This document shows, one piece after another, positions 9,139 through 40,264 of a DNA stretch of 47,553 bases. Origin of the DNA: Caulobacteraceae bacterium (GTDB lineage Bacteria > Pseudomonadota > Alphaproteobacteria > Caulobacterales > Caulobacteraceae); assembly GCA_947475845.1 (NCBI GenBank), contig CANJMO010000012.1, positions 1-47,553 on the forward strand. The letters are read 5' to 3'. The notes under the pieces are model-generated. The model was not told the DNA's origin. It searched no databases and worked only from the letters and a program-made list of their open reading frames with translations. The position numbers and the translations under genes were made by a program. Each line of letters opens with the position of its first letter. Position 1 is the stretch's first letter.

Positions 9139-9170
9139 CGGGGGCCCTTCGGGGCCCCCGTTTCGTTTTG
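9139..9170 (+). terminator. Rho-independent terminator of glnK-amtB
   Basis: A perfect nine-base-pair GC stem (9139-9147 with 9152-9160) closes a TTCG tetraloop and is followed at once by TTTCGTTTT. It lies 33 bases after the amtB stop. The exceptionally stable loop and the T-rich tract make this the clearest terminator in the window. Confidence 0.93.
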
Positions 9171-9208
9171 GGGTTGCGCTCTGTCGAGGGTCATCCCCAC
9201 CATATGTG

Positions 9209-9558
9209 ATGGACCGCGGGCACAAAGCGATATCCGGATGGCCACTCCTTGTCCTGGCGCCGATCCTTGTTCCAATCGCGTTGGTGGTCGGCCTCCTTCA
9301 CAGGATTGGCCTAATTAAGTCCCAACCTAGTGAACCCACTGACATGCCCGCTGAAGAGGTTGCTGGTTACATTCGAGACTTCATCGATGGAACCGGTGGG
9401 GCTTGGGATTGGGACGCGTTCGAGCACACAACCCTAAGGACCCGACCTTGGAAGCCATTCGCCGTGAGGCGTGCTGGGCGGGACCACCCGACGCAGACTT
9501 AGCCAAACTTAGAGAATGCTTGGCGCGAGCCGAAGCCCTGATCGGAAAAGTCAGCTGA
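9209..9558 (+). pseudogene. Small membrane-anchored protein gene with a one-base frameshift
   Basis: The first frame starts at ATG 9209 (or the overlapping GTG at 9206). It encodes a hydrophobic helix (WPLLVLAPILVPIALVVGLL) and then EEVAGYIRDFIDGTGGAWDWDAFE, a segment I associate with a small conserved bacterial family. After about codon 75 the frame degenerates into an unrelated Arg-rich tail ending at 9502. The other frame, entered at AAG 9436, reads DPTLEAIRREA and continues with a plausible Leu/Ala-rich helix to TGA at 9556-9558. One missing base in ACCCTAAGG (9431-9439) would join the two. Either the gene is broken or the base is an assembly error. The restored end overlaps the convergent ispE stop. 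Confidence 0.7.
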
Positions 9559-18429: not shown

Positions 18430-18474
18430 GCCAGTGAACCCATCGCCGATCACCGCCCCTGAGACGGCCACAGC

Positions 18475-21400
18475 ATGAGCCCGTCACGCCCGTTCATCAT
18501 GCGGCCGGTGGCCACCTCGCTGTTCATGGCCGCCATCTTCCTGGCCGGGCTGATCGCGTTCCGTTTCCTGCCGCTGTCGGCCCTGCCCGAGGTCGACTAT
18601 CCAACCATCCAGGTGCAGACCGCCTATCCGGGGGCCAGCCCCGAGGTGATGTCGACCACCGTCACCGCGCCGCTGGAGCGCCAGTTCGGCCAGATGGCCG
18701 ACCTGAACCGGATGTCGTCGATCAGCTCGGCCGGCTCCTCGATCATCACCCTGCAGTTCAACCTCGACCTCAACCTCGACGTGGCCGAACAGGAAGTGCA
18801 GGCGGCGATCAACGCCTCGGGCACCCTGTTGCCCGTCGATCTGCCGGCGCCGCCGGTCTACGCCAAGGTAAACCCGGCCGACGCGCCGATCATGACCCTG
18901 GCCCTGACCTCCAAGACCATGCCCCTGACCCAGCTTCAGGACCTGGCGGACTCGCGCCTGGCTCAGAAGATGTCGCAGGTGAAGGGCGTCGGCATGGTGC
19001 TGATCGCCGGGGGCCAGCGGCCAGCCGTGCGCATCCAGGCTAATACCCAGGCCCTGGCCTCCTACGGCATGACCCTGGCCGACCTGCGCACCGCCATCGC
19101 CTCGGCCAACGCCAACGCGGCCAAGGGCACCTTCGACGGTCCGACCCGCGCCTACACCATCAACGCCAACGACCAGCTGGCCACCGCCGCCGACTATGTG
19201 AACCAGATCATCGCCTTCAAGAACGGCGCGCCGGTCCGGCTGAAGGACGTGGCCACCGCCGTCGAGGGCGCCGAGAACACCCGCCTGGGCGCCTGGGTCA
19301 ACGACCAGCCCGGCATCATCCTCAACGTGCAGCGCCAGCCCGGCGCCAACGTCATCGCCACCGTCGACCAGATCAAGGCGATCCTGCCCGAGCTGGAAGC
19401 CGCCCTGCCGGACTCGGTCAAGGTCGAGGTGATGAGCGACCGCACCACCGGCATCCGCGCCTCGGTCCACGACGTCGAGTTCGAACTGCTGCTGGCCATC
19501 GCCCTGGTGACGGCGGTGATCTTCGTCTTCCTGCGCAGCATCCCGGCGACCTTCATCGCCTCGGTGGCGGCCCCGATCTCGCTGGTGGGCACCTTCGCCG
19601 TCATGCACATGCTCGGGTTCAGCCTTAACAACCTGACCCTGATGGCCCTGACCATCTCGACCGGATTCGTGGTCGACGACGCCATCGTCATGATCGAGAA
19701 CATCGCGCGCTATATCGAAAAGGGCGAGAAACCGCTGGCGGCCGCGCTCAAGGGCGCCGGCGAGATCGGCTTCACCATCATCTCCCTGACCGTATCGCTG
19801 ATCGCGGTGCTGATCCCGCTGCTGTTCATGGGCGACGTGGTGGGCCGGCTGTTCCGCGAGTTCGCCATCACCCTGGCGGTGACCATCGTCATCTCCGCCG
19901 TGGTCTCCCTGACCCTGGTGCCGACCCTGTCGGCCCTGTGGCTGAAGAACCACGACAAGACCCAGGACTCCAAGTTCGGCAAATGGAGCCAGGAGAAGTT
20001 CGACCGGCTGATCGACAAATACGACGAAGGCCTGACCTGGGTGCTCGGCCATCAGAAGTTCACCCTGATCGTCGCGGCCGCGACCCTGGCCCTCACCTGC
20101 CTGCTCTACATCGTCATCCCCAAGGGCCTGTTCCCGACCCAGGACACCGGCATCGTTCAGGGCTACACCGAGGCCGGGCAATCGGTGTCCTACACCCGCA
20201 TGGCCGGCCTGCAGCAGAACCTGGCCAAGGAGCTGCTCAAGGATCCCGACGTGGTCTCGCTGACCTCCTATATCGGGGTTGACGGCTCCAACACGACGAT
20301 GAACGTCGGCCGGGTGCTGATCAATCTGAAGCCGCAGGGCCAACGCACCGGCTCGCAGGAGAAGGTGTTGGAGAACCTGCGCCAGCGCGCGCGCAACGTC
20401 GCCGGCATCACCCTCTATGTGCAGCCGGTCCAGGACCTGAGCATCGATTCCAGCGTCAGCCGCACCCAGTACCAGTTCTCGCTGGAAGGCTCCGACCAGG
20501 CCCAGGTCAACCAGTGGGCGGCCAAGATCGTCGACCGGCTGAACGACGACAACAAGGTTCGCAACGTCGCCGCCGACGTCCAAGCCGAGGGCCTCTCGAC
20601 CTTCATCGAGATCGACCGCGACACCGCCGCCCGGGTCGGGGTGGCCGCCTCCACCGTCGACGACGCCCTCTACGACGCTTTCGGTCAGCGGATCATCTCG
20701 ACCATCTTCACCCAGTCCAACCAGTACCGGGTGATCCTGCAGGCCGATCCCAAGCTGCTGGAAAACCCTGACGGGCTGAAGCACATCTACCTGCGCGCCG
20801 CCAACGGCGAGGCCACGCCGCTGGCCTCGTTCTCGACCATCAGGCAGCAGCTGTCGCCGCTGCAGATCAACAAGGTCAGCCAGTTCCCGTCGGCCAATAT
20901 CTCATTCGACACCGCGCCCGGGGTCTCGCTCGGCGCGGCGGTCAATGCGGTCAAGCAGGCGGAAAAGGACATCGGCATCCCGGCAGCGATCACCACCTCG
21001 TTCCTGGGCGCCGCCAACGCCTTCCAGTCCTCGCTGTCCAACGAGCTGTGGCTGATCCTGGCGGCGATCGTAACCGTCTATATCGTGCTGGGCGTGCTCT
21101 ATGAGAGCTACATCCACCCGCTGACGATCCTGTCGACGCTTCCTTCGGCCGGGGTGGGCGCTCTGCTTGCCCTGATGCTGTTCCGCCAGGACATGGGCGT
21201 GATCGCCATCATCGGGCTGATCCTGCTGATCGGCATCGTCAAGAAGAACGCGATCATGATGATCGACTTCGCCCTGGACGCCGAGCGCAACGAGGGCAAG
21301 AGCCCGCAGGAAGCCATCCACCAGGCCGCCCTGCTGCGCTTCCGGCCGATCCTGATGACCACCCTGGCCGCCCTGTTCGGCGCCCTGCCGCTGATGCTGG

Positions 21401-21636
21401 GCTGGGGCGAGGGCTCGGAGCTGCGCCATCCGCTGGGCATCAGCATCGTCGGCGGCCTGATCGTCAGCCAGATGCTGACCCTGTTCACCACCCCCGTGAT
21501 CTATGTGACCTTCGACAATCTGGCCAATCGCTGGCGCAAGCGCGGCGACAAGACGGATGAAGGCGAAGACAAGACCCGCCTGCTTGAGCCGCCGGTCCAC
21601 CCGCAGGGCGGCGCGGCGGACGCGAGCGCCACGTGA
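18475..21636 (+). CDS. RND multidrug efflux permease (MdtB-like, HAE1 family)
   Basis: 1053 aa, full length. It is an inner-membrane proton-drug antiporter. The N-terminus [20 protein letters not shown] leads into TM1. TM4 carries the proton-relay pair Asp401-Asp402 in [15 protein letters not shown]10 has Lys924 in [18 protein letters not shown]. Porter-domain landmarks include [21 protein letters not shown] and [11 protein letters not shown]-type helices. It follows the adaptor by 45 bases and overlaps the next RND gene by four bases (GTGA). With the different downstream RND subunit this suggests a heteromeric pump like MdtBC. Confidence 0.95.
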
Positions 21637-24600
21637 ACATCTCCGCCTTCTTCGTCAGGCGGCCGATCGGCACCACCCTGCTGACCATCGGCATCGCCCT
21701 GGCCGGGATCGCGGCCTATTTCCAGCTGCCCGTCTCGCCCCTGCCCCAGGTGGATTTCCCGACCGTGTCGGTGTCCGCCCGCCTGGCCGGGGCCAGCCCC
21801 GAAACCATGGCCACCAGCGTCGCCACCCCGCTGGAAAAGCGCCTGGGCAGGCTGGCCGATGTGTCGGAGATGACCTCGCGCTCGGGCGTCGGCCAGACCA
21901 ATGTGGTTTTGCAGTTCGGCCTCAACCGCAACATCGACGGGGCCGCGCGCGACGTGCAGGCGGCGATCAACGCCTCGCACGTCGACCTGCCGGCGACGCT
22001 GCGCAACAACCCGACCTACAGGAAGCAGAACCCCGCCGACGCGCCGATCCTGATCGTCGCGATGAAATCGACGACCCGCAGCCGCTCGGACATCTACGAC
22101 AGCGCCGCCACCATCGTTCAGCAGCAGCTGGCCCAGGTGAAGGGGGTCGGCGACATCGGCGTGTCGGGCGGGGCCCTGCCGGCGGTGCGGGTCGAGCTGA
22201 ACCCCATGGCCCTGTCGCGCTACGGCATCGCCCTGGAGGACGTGCGCGCGGCCCTGTCGGCGGCCAACGCCAACCGGCCCAAGGGCGTGGTCGATACCGG
22301 CGCCCTGCGCTATCAGATCTACACCAACGACGCCGGCCGCGTGGCCAAGGACTATTCCGGACTGGTGGTCGCCTATCGTAACGGCTCGGCGGTGCGCCTG
22401 AGCGACGTGGCCGAGGTGGTCGACGGGCCCGAGGACACCCACAACGTCGGCCTTGTGAATGGCGTCAACTCGATCGCCGTGATCGTCAGCCGGGCGCCCG
22501 GCGCCAACATCATCCAGACCGTGGACGCGCTGAAGAAGCGCCTGCCGATCATCAAGGCCGCCCTGCCCGGCGACGTCGATCTCGAAGTCGCCATGGACCG
22601 CTCGACCACCATCCGCGCCTCCCTGGCCGACGTGGAGCGCACCCTGGCGATCGCCGTACTGCTGGTGATCGGCGTGGTGGCGTTCTTCCTGCAGAGCGGC
22701 GGCGCGACCCTGGTCCCGTCGGTGGCGGTGACGGTCTCGCTGCTGGGCACGCTCGGGGTCATGTACCTGCTGGGCTTCAGCCTCGACAACCTGTCGCTGA
22801 TGGCCCTGACCATCGCCACCGGCTTCGTCGTCGACGACGCCATCGTCGTGCTGGAGAACATCACCCGCAACGTCGAGAAGGGCATACCGCGCTACCAGGC
22901 GGCGCTGAAGGGCGCCCAGGAGGTCGGCTTCACCGTCATGTCGATCTCGGTCTCGCTGATCGCGGTGTTCATCCCGATCCTGCTGATGGGCGGCATCGTC
23001 GGGCGCCTGTTCCACGAGTTCGCCATCGTCTTGTCGACCGCCATCCTGGTGTCGCTGGTGCTGTCGCTGACCACCACCCCGATGATGTGCGCCTATCTGA
23101 TCGGGCGGCCCAAGCCGGCCGCTCAGCGGGGCTGGTTCGCCCGCACCGCCGACCGCTCGATCGCCTGGATGACCGGGGTCTACGAAAAGGGCCTGACGTG
23201 GGCCCTGGAGTCCGGCCCGGTGATCCTGGCCATCCTGGTCGCCACCATCTGCCTCAACGTCTATCTGTTCTCCGCAGTGCCCAAGGGCTTCTTTCCGCAG
23301 CAGGACACCTCGACCATGATGGGCGGGCTGCAGTCCGACCAGAGCTCGTCGTTCCAGCTGAGCCAGACCCGCCTGCGCCGTTTCGCCGCCATCCTGCAGG
23401 CCGATCCGGCGGTGAACACCGTGGTCGCCAATACGGGCGGCAACTCGGCCGGAGCCTTCTTCCAGGTCGGGCTGAAGCCGAAGAACAAGCGCGATCCGAT
23501 CGATGTGGTGGTGGCGCGCCTACGGCCCCAGCTGGCCCGGGTGACCGGCGCCAGCCTGTTCCTCAATCCGGTGCAGGACGTGCGCGTCGGCGGGCGGCAA
23601 TCCAACGCCACCTATCAATACACCCTGGAGGCCGACGACCTGACCCAGCTGCGCTCATGGGCGACCAAGCTCAGCGAGGCGATGAAGGGCTATCCGTCGC
23701 TGCAGGACGTCAACACCGACCAGGAAGACCACGGCCTGCAGACGTTCCTCAACATCGACCGCGACGCGGCGGCGCGGCTGGGCCTGACCACCACCGACAT
23801 TGACAACACCCTGTACGACGCCTTCGGCCAGCGTCAGGTGACCACCATCTACAACGCCCAGAACCAGTACCATGTGATCATGGAGGTGGCGCCGCAGTAC
23901 GCCCAGGATCCGACCGCGCTGAAGTACATCTACTTGGCCCGCCGCGCGCCCGCCTCCGGGGCCTCGGCCGCCGCGGCGCAGGCCGCCGCCGACACCAGCA
24001 AGAACACGCCGTCCGGCACGGCGCCGACCAACACCGCGACCGGCGCGGCCTCCAACGAAGCGGTCGCCCCGCCTTCGCGCGGCGCGTCCCAGGGCGCGGC
24101 CCTGGCTATCGGCGTCAAGAACAGCATCCCGCTGTCGGCCATCGCCACCTGGAGCGACGGCTCGACCCCGACCTCGGTCAACCACCAGGACGGCTCGGCC
24201 GCCACCACCATCTCGTTCAACCTGGCCGAGGGCGCCTCGCTCAGCGACGCCACCGCCGACATCAAGGCCGCCGAGGGCTCGATCGGCCTGCCCGCCACCA
24301 TCCACGGGTCTTTCCAGGGCACAGCTGCTGTCTTCCAACAGTCGCTGAAGGATGAGCCGCTGCTGATCGGAGCCGCGATCCTGGCGGTCTATATCGTGCT
24401 CGGCATCCTCTACGAGAGCTACATCCACCCGCTGACTGTGCTGTCGACCCTGCCCTCAGCCGGGCTCGGAGCGGTGATCGCGCTTTTGCTGTTCAAGGTG
24501 GAGTTCACCATCATCGCCCTGATCGGGGTCATTCTGCTAATCGGCATCGTCAAGAAGAACGCGATCATGATGATCGACTTCGCCCTGGAGGCGGAGCGAT

Positions 24601-24899
24601 CCCGAGGCCTGTCCGCGCGCGACGCCATCTACGAAGCGGCGATGACCCGCTTCCGCCCGATCATGATGACCACCTTCGCCGCCCTGTTCGGCGCCATTCC
24701 CCTGGCCATCGGCTGGGGCGAAGGCTCGGAAATGCGGCGCCCGCTGGGTATCACCATCATCGGCGGCCTGATGGTCAGTCAGGTACTAACGCTTTTGACG
24801 ACCCCAGTAGTTTATATGTATCTGGACCGCTTCCGCCGGAAGAAGGCCGACGAGGGCTATCTCAGCCGCTCTGGAGCCGCCCCAAATCCGGCTGAATAA
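21633..24899 (+). CDS. RND multidrug efflux permease (MdtC-like) with Ala/Thr-rich insert
   Basis: 1088 aa, starting at a GTG that overlaps the previous stop, which implies translational coupling. The N-terminus is [20 protein letters not shown]. The relay residues are Asp401-Asp402 ([12 protein letters not shown]) and Lys975 ([17 protein letters not shown]). Between YIYLARRA (about 767) and [13 protein letters not shown] (about 827) lies a roughly 55-residue Ala/Ser/Thr/Pro-rich insertion that is absent at the equivalent place in the upstream paralogue ([17 protein letters not shown]). Otherwise it is a complete, apparently functional pump subunit. Confidence 0.95.
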
Positions 24900-29338: not shown

Positions 29339-30445
29339 GTGGCGCCGAGCGAGCGCTCGGCCTCCGCCTACGAGCTGACCATCGTCTCCCCCACATTCAA
29401 CGAACGCCCCAACATCCGCCCGCTGATCGCCAAGCTGGACGCGGCGCTGCGGGGCATCCACTGGCAAGTGATCTTCGTCGACGACAATTCGCCCGACGGC
29501 ACAGCCGAAGAGGTCAAGGCCGCCGCGCGCGAGGACAGCCGCGTCTACTGCATCCGCCGGGTCGGACGGCGCGGCCTCGCCGGCGCCGTGCTCGAAGGCG
29601 CCCTGGCCAGCGCGGCCCCGTTCGTGGCGGTGATCGACGCCGATCTGCAGCATGACGAGACCCTGCTGCCGGCCATGCTGGAGGTGCTGCGCGAGGATCG
29701 CGCCGACATGGTCGTGGCCAGCCGCTACCTGGAGCCGGAGGGCCTCTCTACTGGACTCAGCCCGCCCCGCCAGCAGGGCAGCCGCCTGGCCACCTGGATG
29801 AGCCGCAAGGTTCTGCGCAACGACGTGTCGGACCCGGTCAGCGGCTACTTCATGGCCCGCCGCGCGGTGTGGGACGCCTCGGCGCACAAGCTGTCGACCG
29901 AGGGCTTCAAGGTGCTGTTCGACATCCTCGCCTCGCACCCCGAACCCCTGCGGGTCAGCGAACTGCCCTACAAGTTCCGCGACCGCCTGGCCGGCGAGAG
30001 CAAGCTCGACCGCCGCGTCGTCATCGAATACCTGAGCCTGATCCTGAACAAGGCGACCAACGACATGATCCCGGCGCGGGCGATCATGTTCGCCCTGGTC
30101 GGATCGACCGGCTTCCTGGTCAATGTCGGGGTGGTGCTGGCGCTGGACGGTGCGCACGCGCCGCTGCCATTCTGGGGCGTGCAGCTAACCGCGGCCATGG
30201 TCGCGATGACCTCCAACTACCTGATCAACAATGCGGTCACCTACCAAGACCGCCGCCGCAAGGGCCTGGCCTTGCTGAGCGGCTATGTCCGCTTCTGCCT
30301 GCTCTGCAGCGCCGGCCTGTTCGTCAACGTCGCCATCGCCTCCTTCCTCGACGACCGCCTGCACGCCGCGATCCTCGCCGGCGTGGCCGGAGCCCTGTTC
30401 GGGGCCGTCTGGAACTATGTCACCACCGCGCTCGCCGTCTGGTGA
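29339..30445 (+). CDS. Dolichol-phosphate-mannose synthase-like glycosyltransferase with GtrA domain
   Basis: 368 aa from GTG 29339, which has GGAGG five bases upstream. TTG 29306, also with GGAGGA, and GTG 29291 are in-frame alternatives. The GT2 domain has YELTIVSPTFNERPNI, the nucleotide-binding VIFVDDNSPDGT, and the catalytic AVIDADLQHDE. From about residue 240 a GtrA-type domain with four helices begins (ARAIMFALVGSTGFLVNVGVVLAL ... NYLINNAVTYQDRR). It probably makes a polyprenyl-phosphate sugar at the inner membrane. The next gene overlaps it and encodes a GT-C transferase that could use the product. Confidence 0.92.
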   Translation: MAPSERSASAYELTIVSPTFNERPNIRPLIAKLDAALRGIHWQVIFVDDNSPDGTAEEVKAAAREDSRVYCIRRVGRRGLAGAVLEGALASAAPFVAVIDADLQHDETLLPAMLEVLREDRADMVVASRYLEPEGLSTGLSPPRQQGSRLATWMSRKVLRNDVSDPVSGYFMARRAVWDASAHKLSTEGFKVLFDILASHPEPLRVSELPYKFRDRLAGESKLDRRVVIEYLSLILNKATNDMIPARAIMFALVGSTGFLVNVGVVLALDGAHAPLPFWGVQLTAAMVAMTSNYLINNAVTYQDRRRKGLALLSGYVRFCLLCSAGLFVNVAIASFLDDRLHAAILAGVAGALFGAVWNYVTTALAVW

Positions 30446-31892
30446 GGACGGCCGGCGCCGTTCCGCGGCGACGCCCCTGATCCTCCTGATCGGCGCCCTG
30501 GCGCTGATCCGCCTGCTGGCGGCCGCCTTCATCCCCCTGACCGAGGACGAAGCCTACTATCGCCTGTGGGCCCAGCATCCGGGCCTGGGCTACTACGATC
30601 ACCCGCCGATGATTTCCTGGTGGATCGCCGCCGGCATGCGCCTGGCCGGCGACAGCGCGCTCGGCGTGCGGTTGCTGCCGGTTCTGTCCAGCCTGATGAC
30701 CACCGCCCTGGTCATCGACCTCGGACGGCGCATGGGCGCGGAGCGGACGGGCCTGACCGCCGCCCTGCTCTACAACGCCACTCTGACCGTCGGCGCGGGC
30801 GCCATCCTGGCCATTCCCGACGCGCCGGCCAGCCTGTTCTGGGTAGCGACCCTGTGGGCCATGGTCCGCGCGACCGAGGACCACGACCGCTGGTGGCTGA
30901 TGGCGGGAGCGGCGGCGGGGCTGGCGTGCCTGTCCAAATATTCCGCCCTGTTCCTGGCTCCCGGCGTGATCGCCTGGCTGGCCCTGAGCGTCGATGGCCG
31001 TCGACGCCTGGCCAGCCCGTGGCCGTGGCTGGCGGCCCTGATCGCGGCCGCGGTCTTTTCAGTCAACGTCGCCTGGAACGCCGACCACCACTGGCTGACC
31101 TTCGCCAAGCAGTTCGGTCGGGTCAGCCCCGGACGCTTCACCCCGCGCTATCTCGGTGAGTTCATCGGCGCGCAGTTTGTCCTGCTCAATCCGGCGGTCG
31201 CCATCCTGGCTGGGCTGGGGGCGGCCAAGGCCTGCAAGGCGCGCCAAGGCGTCCCCCTGATGGCCGTGGCCACCAGCATCGCCTTCCTCGCCTATCTGCT
31301 GCTGCACAGCCTGCACGACCGGGTTCAGGCGCACTGGCCGGTCCCGCTCTACCCCGCCGCCGCCCTGCTGGCCGCCTACGCCCTGGAGGGCGCGTCCGGC
31401 TGGCGCGCCGGGCTCGGCCGCTGGGCCCCGGCCGCCATCGGCCTGACCACCATCGCCCTGGCCTACATGGCCCTGCCCTTCAGCCTGCTGGCCAAGGGCG
31501 ATCCCGCGGCCCAATTGCGCGGCTGGCCGCAGTTCGCATCCGGGGTCGATCTGCTGCGCGCGGGCCAGGGCGCAGGCTGGGTCGGGTCGTTGAGCTACGG
31601 CGTCAACGCCCAACTCCTGGCCCAGCGGCGGATCGCCGCGCCCGTTCTGCAGATCAGCGAACGCGACCGCTACCTCGACATGCCCGACACCGCAGCCGAC
31701 CTGGCCAAGCCGGGCCTGCTGGTCGACCTGCTGCGGCGGGTGGACCGCGCCAAGCTGGAAGCCTGTTTCGCCTCGGTGGGGCCGGTGCAGGAGATCTATC
31801 GAGGCTCGGTCCAGGACCCGGACAGCCGCTATGGCGCCGTGCTCGTGTCCGGGCCCAAACTCGACTTGAAAAAGACCGGCTGCCCTAGCTGA
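30417..31892 (+). CDS. ArnT/GT39-type integral membrane glycosyltransferase
   Basis: 491 aa from ATG 30417, overlapping the previous gene by 29 bases. It is a polytopic GT-C protein. The first periplasmic loop has the acidic motif TEDEAYYRLWAQHPGLGYYDHPPMI (Glu43-Asp44-Glu45), typical of PMT/ArnT enzymes that take sugars from polyprenyl-phosphate donors. About eleven hydrophobic helices follow to about residue 375, then a roughly 110-residue soluble C-terminal domain. With the upstream DPM-like gene it forms a plausible two-step system for modifying lipid A, polysaccharide or protein; the acceptor is unknown. Confidence 0.92.
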   Translation: MSPPRSPSGEDGRRRSAATPLILLIGALALIRLLAAAFIPLTEDEAYYRLWAQHPGLGYYDHPPMISWWIAAGMRLAGDSALGVRLLPVLSSLMTTALVIDLGRRMGAERTGLTAALLYNATLTVGAGAILAIPDAPASLFWVATLWAMVRATEDHDRWWLMAGAAAGLACLSKYSALFLAPGVIAWLALSVDGRRRLASPWPWLAALIAAAVFSVNVAWNADHHWLTFAKQFGRVSPGRFTPRYLGEFIGAQFVLLNPAVAILAGLGAAKACKARQGVPLMAVATSIAFLAYLLLHSLHDRVQAHWPVPLYPAAALLAAYALEGASGWRAGLGRWAPAAIGLTTIALAYMALPFSLLAKGDPAAQLRGWPQFASGVDLLRAGQGAGWVGSLSYGVNAQLLAQRRIAAPVLQISERDRYLDMPDTAADLAKPGLLVDLLRRVDRAKLEACFASVGPVQEIYRGSVQDPDSRYGAVLVSGPKLDLKKTGCPS

Positions 31893-31949
31893 AAACCCGA
31901 CATCGACAACGCCGCGTTAACCCTAGTGCAAGGGGCTCACGCCAAGCTG

Positions 31950-31976
31950 TCCTGGCGTCTCTATGGACGCCAGGAG
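31950..31976 (+). promoter_or_regulatory. Perfect 10-bp hairpin covering an ATG and a Shine-Dalgarno
   Basis: TCCTGGCGTC (31950-31959) pairs exactly with GACGCCAGGA (31966-31975). The six-base loop TCTATG contains the ATG at 31963. The 3' arm runs into AGGAG (31972-31976), seven bases before an in-frame TTG at 31984. If translation starts at the TTG, the hairpin hides its ribosome site. No T-tract follows, so it is a poor intrinsic terminator. Confidence 0.55.
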
Positions 31977-32262
31977 TCTCGCCTTGGTCGCAGCCGCCAG
32001 ATTACCCGCCGCTCGCCACGGGTTTGTGGAAGCCGCGTCCTGGCCGGCGGACATCTCCGATCCCGCGATCCTTGAAACCGGCGCCCTACTGACGGCCGGC
32101 GGCGACAGCCGCATCGAACTGGACGAAACGTCCGGGGTGAACCGCTACGGCTGCGCCCCGGCGCCCGACCCAGAGATCGCGCCTTACGGTTCGTCCACCG
32201 CCTCGACTATTTCCCCCGCCGCCTTCGCCGCCGCGCTCAGCATCACATGCTGGCCGAGGTAG
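31963..32262 (+). pseudogene. Truncated 5' part of an unrecognised gene
   Basis: The frame opens at ATG 31963 (or TTG 31984). It reads as credible protein through ETGALLTAGGDSRIELDETS, GVNRYGCAPAPDPEIAPYGS and STASTIS, about 84 residues to 32214. It then enters DNA whose other strand encodes the start of an ABC permease, and ends 16 codons later. I do not recognise the family. The compact motifs (GGDSRI, NRYGC.P.P, SSTASTIS) look like the N-terminus of a longer enzyme. I infer that the 3' part was lost in a deletion. Confidence 0.55.
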
Positions 32263-32306
32263 TTCGGCAGCAGCTTCCAGGCGGCGGCGACCTGCGGACT
32301 ATTCAT
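32184..32306 (-). pseudogene. Truncated osmoprotectant-type ABC permease, first ~27 codons
   Basis: It begins at ATG 32306, overlapping the ATPase stop by eight bases (ATGAATAG), the normal coupling in such operons. The product is 40 aa: MNSPQVAAAWKLLPNYLGQH, then VMLSAAA, followed by a hydrophilic, unrelated KAAGEIVEAVDEP and a stop. The first part matches the start of glycine-betaine/choline-type (OpuB/YehW-like) permeases, where a TM helix should continue. The permease is missing from about codon 28. The break coincides with the end of the plus-strand remnant at about 32214-32225. Confidence 0.65.
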
Positions 32307-33075
32307 GCGGCTTGGCCATCAGGGCGGAGACGCGGTCGGCCTGTTGTTTCGGGGTGGCCATCAGGGCGGCGACATCGGGGTCGGCGGCGCCGGCCAGCAG
32401 GTTGCGCGGCGTGTCGTCGGCCAGCACCCGCCCGCCCTTCATCACCACGATACGGTCGGCCAGCAGCACGGCTTCGGACACGTCATGCGTGACCATCACC
32501 GTGGTCAGGCCCAGGCGGTCGTGCAGGGCGCGGTAGGCGTCGCCAAGCTCGATGCGGGTGACAGGATCTAGCGCGCCGAACGGCTCGTCCATCAGCATCA
32601 GTTTCGGCTTGGCGGCCAGGGCGCGGGCCACCCCCACGCGCTGGCGCTCGCCGCCAGACAGAGCCGCGGGAAAGCGCGCGCCATAGGCCTGCGGCAGGGC
32701 GACCAGATGGAGCAACTCGGCGGTGCGCTTGGCGATATCGTACGCAGACCAGCCCAACAGGCGCGGCGTGACCGCGATGTTCTCGGCCACGGTCAGATGC
32801 GGGAACAGCCCGACGCCCTGGAATACATAGCCGATACTCCGGCGCAGCAGCGGGCCTGGCCGATCGCGCACCGACTTGCCGTCCAGGCGCACTTCGCCCT
32901 TATCTGGGTCGATCAGGCGGTTGATGGTCTTGAGGGTGGTGGTCTTGCCGGACCCCGAGGTCCCGACCAGGGCCACGAACTCGCCCGCCGCGATGCTCAT
33001 GCTGACATCGGTCAGGGCCGCGCCGCCGGGGTAGGCCTTGCTGACCTTGTCGATCGCGATCATGGGTGCGGCCAT
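32299..33075 (-). CDS. ABC transporter ATPase, osmoprotectant (OpuCA/YehX-like) type
   Basis: 258 aa. It has Walker A GTSGSGKTT (38-46), Q-loop YVFQGVG (Gln86), signature LSGGERQ (139-145), Walker B LMLMDEP (159-165) and the H-loop VTHDVSEA. The segment TTLKTINRLIDPDKGEVRLDGK is characteristic of the glycine-betaine/carnitine/choline ATPases. Its usual next gene, the permease, survives only as a 40-codon remnant, and no substrate-binding protein is nearby. Unless it works with a permease encoded elsewhere, it is an orphan. Confidence 0.93.
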   Translation of the reverse strand: MAAPMIAIDKVSKAYPGGAALTDVSMSIAAGEFVALVGTSGSGKTTTLKTINRLIDPDKGEVRLDGKSVRDRPGPLLRRSIGYVFQGVGLFPHLTVAENIAVTPRLLGWSAYDIAKRTAELLHLVALPQAYGARFPAALSGGERQRVGVARALAAKPKLMLMDEPFGALDPVTRIELGDAYRALHDRLGLTTVMVTHDVSEAVLLADRIVVMKGGRVLADDTPRNLLAGAADPDVAALMATPKQQADRVSALMAKPHE

Positions 33076-33150
33076 GCCGTCAGGCTAGGCCATTTGCGGC
33101 GCATCCCCAACCGCCGTCGAACAGCGGTTGGAGAGCATCGGTCGATAGTT

Positions 33151-33384
33151 TTAGTTGGCCTTGGTCCAGCGGCGCTCGGCTTCGTCGCGGTCGAGGTTCA
33201 GGTGAACCTTCTCATCGATGTAGTCGACCCAGCTGAGCGGGATCAGGTGATGCTTGCCCATGGCCTGCAGGTCCATCTTGGCCAGCTCGATCTCGGAGCC
33301 GCGCACATGGTCCACGCGGCCGACGTGCTTGCCGTCCGAGCTGAGGACTTCCATGTGCTCGGTGATCTGGGAGGATTCGATCAT
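33151..33384 (-). CDS. DUF2171 protein
   Basis: 77 aa from ATG 33384 (MIESSQITEHMEVLSSDGKH). An in-frame start at 33414 would add ten residues. The sequence VGRVDHVRGSEIELAKMD, then HHLIPLSWVDYIDEKVHL, is the compact beta-barrel (PRC-barrel-like) pattern of DUF2171. Function is unknown. It is probably cytosolic, since no signal peptide is visible. It stands alone between the ABC ATPase gene and the divergent DUF4169 gene. Confidence 0.88.
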   Translation of the reverse strand: MIESSQITEHMEVLSSDGKHVGRVDHVRGSEIELAKMDLQAMGKHHLIPLSWVDYIDEKVHLNLDRDEAERRWTKAN

Positions 33385-33510
33385 GGTCTTGTCTCGATTG
33401 GTTACGCCCGCCAATCGCGGGAGATGCTCCTACAACTGAAAAAGCAGCTTGGCCGTTGCACTCTATCTGCACCCCTGGCCCGTTTATCGGTTCGGCGTTA
33501 GGCTTGGGCC

Positions 33511-33699
33511 ATGGCCGGCAACGTCATCAACCTGAGCAAAGCCCGCAAGGCGCGCGACAAGGCGGCCAAGCAAACTCAGGCCGCCCATAACCGCGCCGGT
33601 TTCGGCCGCACCAAGGGCGAGAAGGCGCACGGCATCTCCCTGGCGGAGAAGGTCAAGCGTGTGCTGGACGACGCCAAGCGCGACCGCGACCCCAAATAA
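33511..33699 (+). CDS. DUF4169 small basic protein
   Basis: 62 aa. MAGNVINLSKARKARDKAAK, a strongly basic helix, is followed by AAHNRAGFGRTKGEK and a basic tail. This is the DUF4169 pattern of alphaproteobacteria. Function is unknown; the charge and short length suggest nucleic-acid or ribosome association (inference). The stop TAA is followed immediately by the GTG start of the ribbon-helix-helix gene (TAAGGTG), which suggests coupled translation. Confidence 0.88.
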   Translation: MAGNVINLSKARKARDKAAKQTQAAHNRAGFGRTKGEKAHGISLAEKVKRVLDDAKRDRDPK

Positions 33700-33700
33700 G

Positions 33701-33922
33701 GTGGCCGGCCTTTCCAAGCGTTCCCTGCTGCTGGCCGGCCACGCCACTTCCCTGGCGCTGGAGCCGCCGTTCTGGGCGGTGATGGAGCGGATCGCCGCGG
33801 CCGAGGGCGTCAGCCTGCCGGCCCTGCTGGTGCAGATCGACGCCCAGCGCGGCGCCGCCTCCCTGGCATCGGCCTGCCGCGTGCGGGCGCTGCAATGGGT
33901 CGCCGCCAACCCGGCGGACTGA
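33701..33922 (+). CDS. Ribbon-helix-helix domain protein
   Basis: 73 aa from GTG 33701. KRSLLLAGHATSLALEPPFW, then AVMERIAAAEGVSLPALLVQ, matches the RHH_4 type: a beta-strand followed by two helices that dimerise and bind DNA. Proteins of this type are widespread next to DUF4169 in alphaproteobacteria. The target is unknown. No toxin-like partner is visible, so I do not call it an antitoxin. Confidence 0.88.
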   Translation: MAGLSKRSLLLAGHATSLALEPPFWAVMERIAAAEGVSLPALLVQIDAQRGAASLASACRVRALQWVAANPAD

Positions 33923-34022
33923 CAAGGGACGGTTCCGTTCGGGCCGTAGCGCGCTTATATCCAGGCCCGCTTGTGCTACATTCGTTCTCATCCGCCCGCG
34001 TCCCAGTGATTCAGGAATTGCC

Positions 34023-36359
34023 TTGTCCGACCCCGAAGTCCCCGCCGTCCGCATCAGCGACCTGGCCCGGCCGCAAGGCCCGCGCGTCTCAGGCTACCTG
34101 GACGGCCTGAATCCCGAGCAGCGCCGCGCGGTCGAGGCGACCGAGGGCCCGGTGCTGGTCCTAGCGGGCGCCGGCACCGGCAAGACCCGCGTGCTGACCA
34201 CCCGGCTGGCCCACATCCTCAACCAGGGCAAGGCGCGGCCGTGGGAGCTGCTGGTGGTCACCTTCACCAACAAGGCCGCGCGCGAGATGCGCGAGCGGAT
34301 CACCCACCTGATCGGGCCCGAGGCCGAGGGCCTGCGCTGGCTGGGCACCTTCCACTCCGTCGCCGCCCAGATCCTGCGCCGCCATGCGGAACTGGTGGGT
34401 CTGAAGTCCAGCTTCACAATCCTCGACGACGACGATCAGGAGCGCCTGATCAAGCAACTGCTGGCGGCCGAGAACATCGACTCCAAGCGCTGGCCGTCGC
34501 GCATGCTGGCCGGGCTGATCGACCAGTGGAAGAACCGCGGCTGGACCCCGGACAAACTGCCCGCCGTCGAGAGCGCCGCCTTCGCCAACAACCGCGGGCA
34601 GGCCCTGTACAAGATGTACCAGGACCGCATGCGCGTGCTGAACGCCTGCGATTTCGGCGACCTGCTGCTGCACAACCTGACGATCTTCACCCAGCATCCC
34701 GACGTGCTGGCAGATTTCCACAACCGCTTCCGCTACATCCTGGTGGACGAATACCAGGACACCAACGTCGCCCAGTATCTGTGGCTGCGTCTGCTGGCCC
34801 AGCACCGCCAGAATGTCTGCTGCGTGGGCGACGACGACCAGTCGATCTACGGCTGGCGCGGGGCCGAGGTGGACAACATCCTGCGTTTCGAGCGCGACTT
34901 TCCGGGCGCCGAGGTGATCCGGCTGGAGCGCAACTACCGTTCGACCGAACACATCCTCGGGGCCGCCTCGGGGCTGATCAAGGCCAACAAGGGACGCCTG
35001 GGCAAGACCTTGTGGACGCAGGACAAGGGCGGCGAGAAGGTCCAGGTGCGCGGCGTCTGGGACGGCGAGGCCGAGAGCCGGCTGATCGCCGAGGAGATCG
35101 AGCGCTACAAGCGCAAGGACGGCCACAAGTACCGCGACATCGCCATCCTGGTGCGCGCCTCGTTCCAGATGCGCGCCTTCGAAGAGCGCTTCGTGATGGA
35201 GGCGATCCCCTACACCGTGGTCGGCGGCCCGCGCTTCTTCGAGCGCGCCGAAATCCGCGACGCCCACGCCTATCTGCGGCTGATCCAGTCCGAAGACGAC
35301 GACCTGGCCTTCGAGCGCATCGTCAACACGCCCAAGCGCGGCATCGGCGACACCACGGTGTCGAAAATCCTGCAGATCGCGCGGGGCGCCAATCTGTCGG
35401 CGGCGCTGGCCTCGCACGGTATCGTTAATTCCGACGAGCTGGCCGCGCGCACCCGCACGGCCCTGTCGAACTTCCTGCGCGACCTGGACCGCTGGCGGAA
35501 GCTGGGCGAAGTGACGCCCCACGCCCAGTTGCTGGAAACCATCCTGGAGGAGAGCGGCTACACCGACGCGCTCAAAGCCGACAAGGGCCCTACCAGCCAG
35601 ACCCGCCTGGAGAACCTCAAGGAGCTGGTCCAGTCGATGGCCCAGTTCGAGGACCTGCAATCCTACCTCGAGCACGTCTCCCTGGTGATGGACCTGGACC
35701 GCGGTCCCGGCGGCGACGCGGTGCAGATCATGACCCTGCACTCGGCCAAGGGGCTGGAGTTCCCGCTGGTGTTCCTGCCCGGCTGGGAGGAAGGGATGTT
35801 CCCCTCGCAGCGCTCGATGGACGAGAAGGGCGAGAAGGGCCTGGAGGAAGAGCGCCGCCTGGCCTACGTCGGCATCACCCGCGCCAAGAGCGAGGCGCGC
35901 CTGTCGTTCGTCGCCAACCGCCAGGTCTACGGCCGCTGGACCAGCCAACTGCCCAGCCGCTTCATCGACGAACTGCCCCTGGCCCACGTCGAGGCGGCGT
36001 CGGAGACCGGCTACTACGGCGGCGGTCCCGGCATGCAACAGACGGCCTCGCGCTGGGAAGAATCCAGCTTCGGCGGCGCGGGTTACACCTCGCCCGGCTG
36101 GCAGCGAGCCCAGCAGCGCACCGCCGCGCGCACCGGCTTTTCCGAGCCCTCGCGCACCCGCACCCAGCCGATCGAGGGCGAGGGCCGGCTGGTGGCGATC
36201 TCCGAACCCGCCGCCTCCAGCTATACGCGCGGCGAGCGCGTGTTCCACATCAAGTTCGGCTACGGCCAGGTGGTGGGGGTCGAGGGCAACAAACTGACCG
36301 TCGCCTTCGACAAGGCCGGCGAGAAGAAGGTCATCGACAGCTTCGTCGAACGGGCCTGA
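34023..36359 (+). CDS. uvrD: ATP-dependent DNA helicase UvrD/PcrA
   Basis: 778 aa starting at TTG 34023. It is a superfamily 1A 3'-5' helicase in nucleotide-excision and mismatch repair. It has the Q motif LNPEQRRAVEA, motif I AGAGTGKT (about 48-55), Ia VTFTNKAAREM, II VDEYQDTN (about 241-248), III GDDDQSIYGWRGA, IV RLERNYRST, V TLHSAKGLEFPLVF and VI EERRLAYVGITRAK. The roughly 130-residue tail after motif VI ends in a Tudor-like segment ERVFHIKFGYGQVVGVEGNK, as in PcrA/UvrD, which binds RNA polymerase. All catalytic motifs are intact. Confidence 0.96.
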   Translation: MSDPEVPAVRISDLARPQGPRVSGYLDGLNPEQRRAVEATEGPVLVLAGAGTGKTRVLTTRLAHILNQGKARPWELLVVTFTNKAAREMRERITHLIGPEAEGLRWLGTFHSVAAQILRRHAELVGLKSSFTILDDDDQERLIKQLLAAENIDSKRWPSRMLAGLIDQWKNRGWTPDKLPAVESAAFANNRGQALYKMYQDRMRVLNACDFGDLLLHNLTIFTQHPDVLADFHNRFRYILVDEYQDTNVAQYLWLRLLAQHRQNVCCVGDDDQSIYGWRGAEVDNILRFERDFPGAEVIRLERNYRSTEHILGAASGLIKANKGRLGKTLWTQDKGGEKVQVRGVWDGEAESRLIAEEIERYKRKDGHKYRDIAILVRASFQMRAFEERFVMEAIPYTVVGGPRFFERAEIRDAHAYLRLIQSEDDDLAFERIVNTPKRGIGDTTVSKILQIARGANLSAALASHGIVNSDELAARTRTALSNFLRDLDRWRKLGEVTPHAQLLETILEESGYTDALKADKGPTSQTRLENLKELVQSMAQFEDLQSYLEHVSLVMDLDRGPGGDAVQIMTLHSAKGLEFPLVFLPGWEEGMFPSQRSMDEKGEKGLEEERRLAYVGITRAKSEARLSFVANRQVYGRWTSQLPSRFIDELPLAHVEAASETGYYGGGPGMQQTASRWEESSFGGAGYTSPGWQRAQQRTAARTGFSEPSRTRTQPIEGEGRLVAISEPAASSYTRGERVFHIKFGYGQVVGVEGNKLTVAFDKAGEKKVIDSFVERA

Positions 36360-36434
36360 ACATTTTTGGAATAATACCGCTCAAGCTCGAACCGTTTGCG
36401 GGCTGGTGCGCTCTGTCTACGCATGGAGCGCATG

Positions 36435-36890
36435 ATGAAGCCGTCCCTATTCTACGGAACAGCAGTATCCGCCGTCATCGGTCTGGCCCTTGGATTGGGC
36501 CTGCATAGCGAGTGGCAGTCGCATGAGGGCGGGCCGCAGGTTCTGGTCGCTTCAGCGGCCGCCGCCGAACTGGCGCGGGTGCGTGACGGCAACGACATCA
36601 TCGAAACGTCTGAGACAGCCGACACGACGTCAGGCTTTGCCGACATCAGCTGGCTCGACACCGGCCAGGGACCCGCCGACTCCCTGCCGGTGGTGCGCCT
36701 GACCCGCATGGGCGGCGCGCCGCGCCCTGCGGCGACGGAGGTCGAGCGCGTCGACGCCGACACCGCCTCCAAAGAGACCACCTCGGTCACCACGGTCGGC
36801 GACTTCAAGGACGACGCCCCGAGCGGACCGCGCATTCCCGCCGGTTCCTATGTGCCGGCCTCCTACACCCCCGGCGACGCCGCCTTCTGA
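36435..36890 (+). CDS. Membrane-anchored or secreted protein of unknown function
   Basis: 151 aa from ATG 36435, six bases after GGAG. In-frame ATGs at 36432 and 36423 and a GTG at 36396 are alternatives. Residues 1-22 (MKPSLFYGTAVSAVIGLALG) are an uncleaved anchor or signal sequence. The rest is Thr/Ser/Asp-rich and probably disordered: VRDGNDIIETSETADTTSGF, then SWLDTGQGPADSLPVVRLTR and a Pro-rich end. No domain is recognisable. It lies between uvrD and prmA in the same direction. Confidence 0.72.
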   Translation: MKPSLFYGTAVSAVIGLALGLGLHSEWQSHEGGPQVLVASAAAAELARVRDGNDIIETSETADTTSGFADISWLDTGQGPADSLPVVRLTRMGGAPRPAATEVERVDADTASKETTSVTTVGDFKDDAPSGPRIPAGSYVPASYTPGDAAF

Positions 36891-36934
36891 TCGCGGCGCT
36901 CGCCTTTCGCGCCTCCGCTTGCTAAGGCCCGGCC

Positions 36935-37798
36935 ATGAGCCAGCAAGCTTTCCAGATCATCGCCCGCGGCCCGCGCGCCGACGCCCAGACCGCCGCCGAG
37001 GCGGTGGACGCCGACATCCTGCTGGAGGGCGCTACCTATTCGATCCTCGAGGAAGACGAGGACAAGGGCCTCTGGCGCATCGACGCCTTCCCGACCAGCG
37101 ACGACGAGGCCGCGCGCTTCCAGGCCGTCCTGGCCGATTTCCCCGCCCTGAAAGTGACCCGCGAAGTCCTGGCCGACGCCGACTGGCTGGCCATGGCGCT
37201 GTCGGGCCTGCCGCCGGTCAAGGCCGGGCGCTTCTTCGTGTTCGGCGTGCACGACCGCGGCCGCGCGCCGGTCAACGCCGTCAACCTGCGGATCGAGGCG
37301 GGCGCCGCCTTCGGCACCGGCCACCATGGCACCACAGTCGGCTGCCTGCTGGCCTACGACCGCCTGCTCAAGGCCCATAGCTACAAGAAGGTGCTCGACG
37401 TCGGCGCCGGCACCGGCGTCCTGGCCATCGCCGCCGCGCGCACCGGCTCGCAGCTGGCGGTCGGCACCGACATCGACGCCGTGTCCGTGCGCATCTCCAA
37501 GGAGAATGCCGAGATCAACAGCGCCAACGCCCGCTTCGTCCACGCCTCCGGCCTGCGCCACCAGCTGGTGGCCCGCCACGCGCCCTACGACCTGGTGTTC
37601 GCCAATATCCTCGCGCGTCCCCTGATCGGCCTGTCGCAAGACATCAAGGGCGCGCTGAAGCCCGGCGGGGTCGCCATCCTGTCCGGCCTGCTGCGCACCC
37701 AGGAACGGGCGGTGAAAGCCGCCTACCTGTCGCGCGGTTTCCGCGTGATGTTCGCCATCCGCCGCGACGCCTGGGTGGCGCTGGTGCTTAAGCGCTAA
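36935..37798 (+). CDS. prmA: Ribosomal protein L11 methyltransferase
   Basis: 287 aa, the normal length. It trimethylates L11 using S-adenosylmethionine. The N-terminal substrate-recognition region (to about 115) is followed by [17 protein letters not shown], the SAM motif [16 protein letters not shown] (about 152-167), and the motif [11 protein letters not shown] (N-I-L-A, about 222-232). The end is [11 protein letters not shown]. The start is ATG 36935. Confidence 0.95.
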
Positions 37799-39773: not shown

Positions 39774-39802
39774 GCTGCCTTCAACCAAGCTGGGAGGCTT
39801 CC

Positions 39803-40264
39803 ATGAAGACCGTCATCGCCGCCGTCACGGCGCTCGCCCTCATGACCGGCGCGGCCCACGCCGCCGAGACCGCTCAGGAGAAAGCCAACAAGGCTCTGGT
39901 GCTGAAGTTCTGGAGCGAGGTGTTCGACCACCGCGACTGGACCAAGGCCAAGACCTACATGGCTGACGGCTACATTCAGCATAACCCCCTGGCGCCCACC
40001 GGGCGGGCGGGCTTCGAGGCCTTCTTCAGCAAAATCTGGCTCAAGCCCCTCACCGACGCCGAAGCCAAGACGACCCACTTCGATGTGGTCATGGCCAAGG
40101 GCGATCTTGTCACCCTGATCCAGAAGATTCCGCGCAAGGACATCAACGGCCAGTCCTACGACAGCTTCTGGTTCGATACCGTTCGGGTCAGGGACGGCAA
40201 GTTGGTCGAGCATTGGGATAACGCCCTGAAACCTGGCCCTGCCCCGCTGCCGAGCCAGCTCTAG
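39803..40264 (+). CDS. Secreted SnoaL/NTF2-like protein
   Basis: 153 aa with a signal peptide (MKTVIAAVTALALMTGAAHA-A). The ATG is preceded by GGGAGG. The mature part has NKALVLKFWSEVFDHRDWTK, then MADGYIQHNPLAPTGRAGFE and VRDGKLVEHWDNALKP, the SnoaL-like cone fold with conserved His/Asn/Asp pocket residues. It is a periplasmic protein of unknown substrate. The stop TAG is one base from the convergent ligA stop. Confidence 0.9.
   Translation: MKTVIAAVTALALMTGAAHAAETAQEKANKALVLKFWSEVFDHRDWTKAKTYMADGYIQHNPLAPTGRAGFEAFFSKIWLKPLTDAEAKTTHFDVVMAKGDLVTLIQKIPRKDINGQSYDSFWFDTVRVRDGKLVEHWDNALKPGPAPLPSQL

Follow-up and report, generated by a model that had tools for sequence, protein, structure and literature searches.

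Two cut frames beside an intact ATPase gene

The window analyzed here, a stretch of 47,553 nucleotides, spans the entire contig C12 of G000, a Caulobacteraceae genome in draft assembly. The assembly totals 2.65 Mb on 101 contigs, with a completeness of 98.67% and a contamination of 0.91%. Three of its open frames are considered here: a plus-strand frame of 99 amino acids (31963-32262), a minus-strand frame of 40 amino acids that is open from 32306 (32187-32306, with a TAA stop at 32184-32186), and a minus-strand frame of 258 amino acids (32299-33075) that encodes an ABC importer ATPase of the ProV type. The ATPase is intact, as the initial annotation of this DNA had stated (ABC_tran, 4.8e-36); its best NCBIfam model is proV (7.7e-71), at 239.1 bits against a cut-off of 326.6, and the 25 of 198 NCBIfam models shown for it all score under their curated cut-offs.

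Each of the two short frames consists of the beginning of a longer gene joined to an out-of-frame tail. On the plus strand, 31963-32235 is a 5' remnant of about 90-91 of the 535 codons of a gene referred to here as gene A, with 67-68% amino acid identity to its full-length homologue in a sister species (G002:C95:23106-24710), and 32236-32262 is a tail and stop that run antisense to the start of a permease gene. On the minus strand, 32226-32306 is a 5' remnant of about 27 of the 274 codons of that gene, an OpuB/ProW-type permease, and is followed by its own tail and TAA stop (32184-32225). The initial annotation had judged the permease frame to be good for about 27 codons, to 32225, and homology to the sister species indeed runs to about 32226. 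It had also recognized that the plus-strand frame loses sense, placing the break at 32214; homology continues some 20 bases further, to about codon 90-91 (32232-32235).

The permease ATG lies inside the final codons of the ATPase frame (32299-32306), and the 40-codon chimeric frame may therefore still be translated through coupling.

The ancestral locus in two sister species

A protein search located the same genes in two sister species of the same genus, G001 and G002. The G002 genes lie together on one contig, C95 (locus L040), in the order of a PMT_2-type gene, which also precedes the break in the window, gene A on the plus strand, and then a row of minus-strand genes encoding a 407-aa protein, a 496-aa Pyridoxal_deC decarboxylase, a 264-aa OpuAC binding protein and a 274-aa permease (G002:C95:28199-29020), with the ATPase beyond them. 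Gene A lies within an open frame of 547 codons on C95. The alignment proposed in the initial annotation, which looked for a full plus-strand gene and a permease of 200-500 codons, is thus answered by genes of 535 and 274 amino acids with three more between them. In G001 the genes are spread over three contigs (C349, C183 and C444), each of which ends inside the locus, and one carries a nearly full-length permease gene at its edge (G001:C444:34-783). Both genes that are truncated in the window are full length in G002, and the G001 fragments agree.

Comparison of the window with the fetched stretches of G002:C95 gave twelve alignments. Of these, eight form a collinear series over window positions 8770-42768, and the remaining four are cross-matches within 18474-24808. 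The spacing of the collinear pieces indicates about 440 bp extra in G002 near window 39775-39854 and about 290 bp extra in the window near 9169-9553; the other spacings differ by at most a few hundred bases, and a gap of 5.57 kb is the sole large one. About 1 kb of C95 (20,001-20,999) falls outside the fetched parts, and the spacing there agrees.

Gene A resembles a PLP-dependent enzyme, by eye only; neither it nor the 407-aa protein has a match in Pfam or NCBIfam (E 0.001) or among solved structures in the PDB (E 0.1). Loci fetched from other members of the family separate the genes around gene A from those of the transporter. One genome (G033, locus L149; 10 kb fetched) has gene A, the 407-aa gene and the decarboxylase together without the transporter, G009 has gene A with the 407-aa gene, and G020 has gene A by itself (10 kb fetched each), while G013, G023, G009 and G007 have the transporter without gene A, the 407-aa gene or the decarboxylase within the stretch fetched (8-11 kb). 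Because the two groups occur separately in relatives, the deletion described below is one that took parts of two modules adjoining in this genus.

The 535-aa gene, the 407-aa gene and the PLP decarboxylase adjoin in two genera (L040 2107-6421, and L149 of G033), and the three may be a small biosynthetic module.

The junction

A BLASTN comparison of window 30000-37000 with G002:C95 gives two collinear pieces that meet at the junction: window 30000-32234 aligns with L040 147-2378 (1,836 bits) and window 32227-37000 with L040 7942-12679 (4,770 bits). The pieces lie 5,571 bp apart in G002, a length that the window lacks, and two of the G001 contigs, C349 and C444, have their own breaks no more than one base from the break points derived from G002. 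Both genes are therefore cut at one point (32226-32234) between flanks still collinear with G002:C95, which agrees with the single deletion cutting both 3' ends of a convergent pair that the initial annotation had proposed. Its account of the extent holds for the two gene ends, and by comparison with G002 three complete genes between them went as well.

Homology on the left stops at 32231-32234 and on the right begins at 32226-32227, and unbroken identity extends from 32209 to 32231 with G002 on the left and from 32226 to 32261 with G001 on the right. Judged by these limits, the breakpoint is within 32226-32233. The two breaks do coincide, as had been noted, but the site suggested for them, CCCCCGCCGCC (32213-32223), lies 3-10 bases too far to the left. 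The left and right homology limits overlap in a possible microhomology of 6-8 bp (32226-32233), which reads CGCCGC, or CGCCGCCG when the 8-base overlap of the BLAST alignments is used. Pairings of G002 gene A with the permease gene at random (200,000 pairings) give at least 6 bases of microhomology in 0.41% of cases and at least 8 in 0.06%, although 0.41% is a rough yardstick and the length of the microhomology is uncertain, its left side being read from G002 and its right side from G001 with the parent sequence lost. Read from G002 by itself, the parental sites agree only at scattered bases in the junction register. The microhomology, suggestive only for these reasons, suggests illegitimate recombination at a short repeat. 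A mobile element at the junction is ruled out, since the alignments overlap by 8 bases and leave no space for it.

We note that a stretch of the permease stub (32226-32261) equals G001 over 36 bases, in flanking alignments that are only about 77-84% identical, possibly by chance.

Assembly of the missing tract

A join made by the assembler, in which the population holds an intact locus and 5.6 kb of it were dropped, would be in keeping with a draft assembly of 101 contigs and a GC-rich breakpoint, and since the parent sequence is lost the repeat argument leans on the sister species. The window, however, contains no N, and the exact words common to the two sites within about 40 bases of the breaks are at most 7 bases long in G002 and at most 10 in G001 (out of register); over their full lengths, gene A and the permease gene of G002 have a longest common word of 11 bases, and assemblers usually use k-mers longer than this. 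A dropped tract would also be expected on another contig, and none of it is found in G000. A DNA query with the missing tract, on which the absence of the 407-aa gene rests, matches the positive controls G001 and G002 but nothing in G000. OpuAC has no match in G000 and one each in G001 and G002 (the search is positive in 7 of 14 control genomes), no Pyridoxal_deC decarboxylase of that kind is present, gene A is matched by residues 1-95 only, and a protein search for the lost kind of permease (E 0.001) finds only the stub. We accordingly discard the placement of the tract on another G000 contig, and consider an assembly artefact very improbable.

The lone ATPase and its relatives

Searches of G000 for the parts of an importer thus find an ABC_tran ATPase but neither an OpuAC binding protein nor a partner permease other than the stub, and the ATPase is left without either partner, as the initial annotation had supposed. 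Ten BPD_transp_1 permease matches are found elsewhere in G000, none of them on contig C12. The lost permease, used as a query, reaches none of the ten (E 0.001), and for this reason they are taken for parts of other importers.

The ATPase is 86% identical to its homologue in G002 and 82% to that in G001, and matches to it with E no higher than 1e-50 occur in 26 of 60 genomes, G000 among them. By score the 25 relatives separate into 16 at 251-462 bits (50-86% identity) and nine at 173-198 bits, with the dividing line put at the score gap after the scores were seen. Every one of the 16 with at least 251 bits has a permease within the locus fetched for it, and 15 of them have a binding protein there too; the exception is G001, whose locus stops at a contig edge and whose binding protein is on C183. 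Eight of the nine lower-scoring loci were examined with about 1.5 kb on each side (the ninth genome, G031, yielded no locus and was left out of the permease check), and seven lack such a permease, with the eighth (L037) having a weak match of 35%. Since its close relatives all have a permease, G000 is the only one of the genomes checked in which an ATPase of this type stands alone. A profile search of genome contigs with six aligned ATPases gave 594 matches, the best 80 of which are all more distant relatives; the top match among these (65%) is from an uncultured alphaproteobacterium, and their loci were not used.

The lost transporter comes nearest to the OpuA/OpuB/ProU type, whose members import quaternary amines or osmoprotectants: the G002 binding protein matches the solved ProX, OpuBC and EgtUC structures, the G002 permease matches choline and betaine permease models, and the window ATPase matches ProV best. 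All three score under the curated NCBIfam cut-offs, however, and no substrate can be assigned for that reason. Unlike such importers, the window retains the ATPase alone.

Age of the deletion

Branch dN/dS values were derived from Nei-Gojobori distances and a three-species split. For about 255 codons of the ATPase they are 0.26 (G000), 0.28 (G001) and 0.15 (G002), and for the first 91 codons of gene A 0.32, 0.71 and 0.40 respectively; the codons are few and the values carry no significance test. The permease stub (23-26 codons) gives erratic values, with a synonymous difference of 0.08 to G001 and 0.81 to G002 and one ratio above 1, and was excluded from the age argument as too short. The gene A stub has no evident use and yet appears no more relaxed than the intact copies. 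Amounting to one sixth of the protein it should be free to change, and its lack of relaxation suggests that the deletion is probably young against the species split. The initial annotation had offered either a recent event or another partner for the ATPase; the comparison of the gene A remnant with intact copies leans to the former. If the deletion is recent, the intact ATPase needs no new partner, and it is most likely a functionless leftover that has not yet had time to decay.

A second reading accepts the deletion but has the ATPase kept to energise another permease as a shared motor, either from before the deletion or since. An intact frame with a branch dN/dS of 0.26 and the ten BPD_transp_1 permeases left in G000 would fit such a role. 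None of those permeases is found with the lost permease, however, and OpuAC has no match; the gene A stub is unrelaxed too, so that recency alone can explain the intact ATPase; and in 16 of 16 close relatives of the ATPase a permease is encoded in the same fetched locus. A shared motor is consequently unlikely, and the part of it in which another importer took over the ATPase after the deletion is distinctly improbable.

Discussion

The genes are present in both other species of the genus, which makes the change a deletion on the branch to G000, very probably a single internal one of about 5.6 kb as far as the comparison of sequences can tell. It would have fused plus-strand gene A, cut near codon 91, with the 5' end of the minus-strand osmoprotectant-type permease gene, with loss of the 3' 83% of gene A, the 407-aa gene, the PLP decarboxylase gene, the OpuAC-type binding-protein gene and the 3' 90% of the permease gene, by illegitimate recombination or end joining at the 6-8 bp GC-rich microhomology. 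The ATPase gene, as the first of the former row on its strand, would thereby have kept its own 5' side and frame.

The opposite polarity, with the two open short frames as real small genes and an insertion behind the arrangement seen in the sisters, is hardly credible and is rejected, since the frames each align to the N-terminus of a long gene present in relatives (gene A in five other genomes of the family, the permease in 16) and lose homology within the same 6-8 bases, neither is seen conserved in another species among the genomes searched, and the insertion would need to bring in, each in frame, the ends of two genes that are unrelated.

Bacteria lose genes by deletion at short direct repeats, through illegitimate recombination or alternative end joining. 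The deletion in G000 resembles such events in its large internal loss, its abutting remnants, its few bases of possible microhomology and the lack of room for a mobile element. It differs from the usual case in that two convergent genes were cut at once and the ATPase, first of its row, was left intact, and the mechanism is inferred. The case rests on one draft assembly, and other strains of the species could still carry the deleted DNA.

The event is ordinary gene loss at an early stage in one draft genome. It offers a clean example of that stage, with frames beside the cut that have no visible decay and two sister species that show the ancestral state. Were a takeover of the ATPase by another importer true, a transport system would have been rewired and not destroyed. 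For annotators of such genomes, osmoprotectant import is not to be inferred from a lone ATPase.
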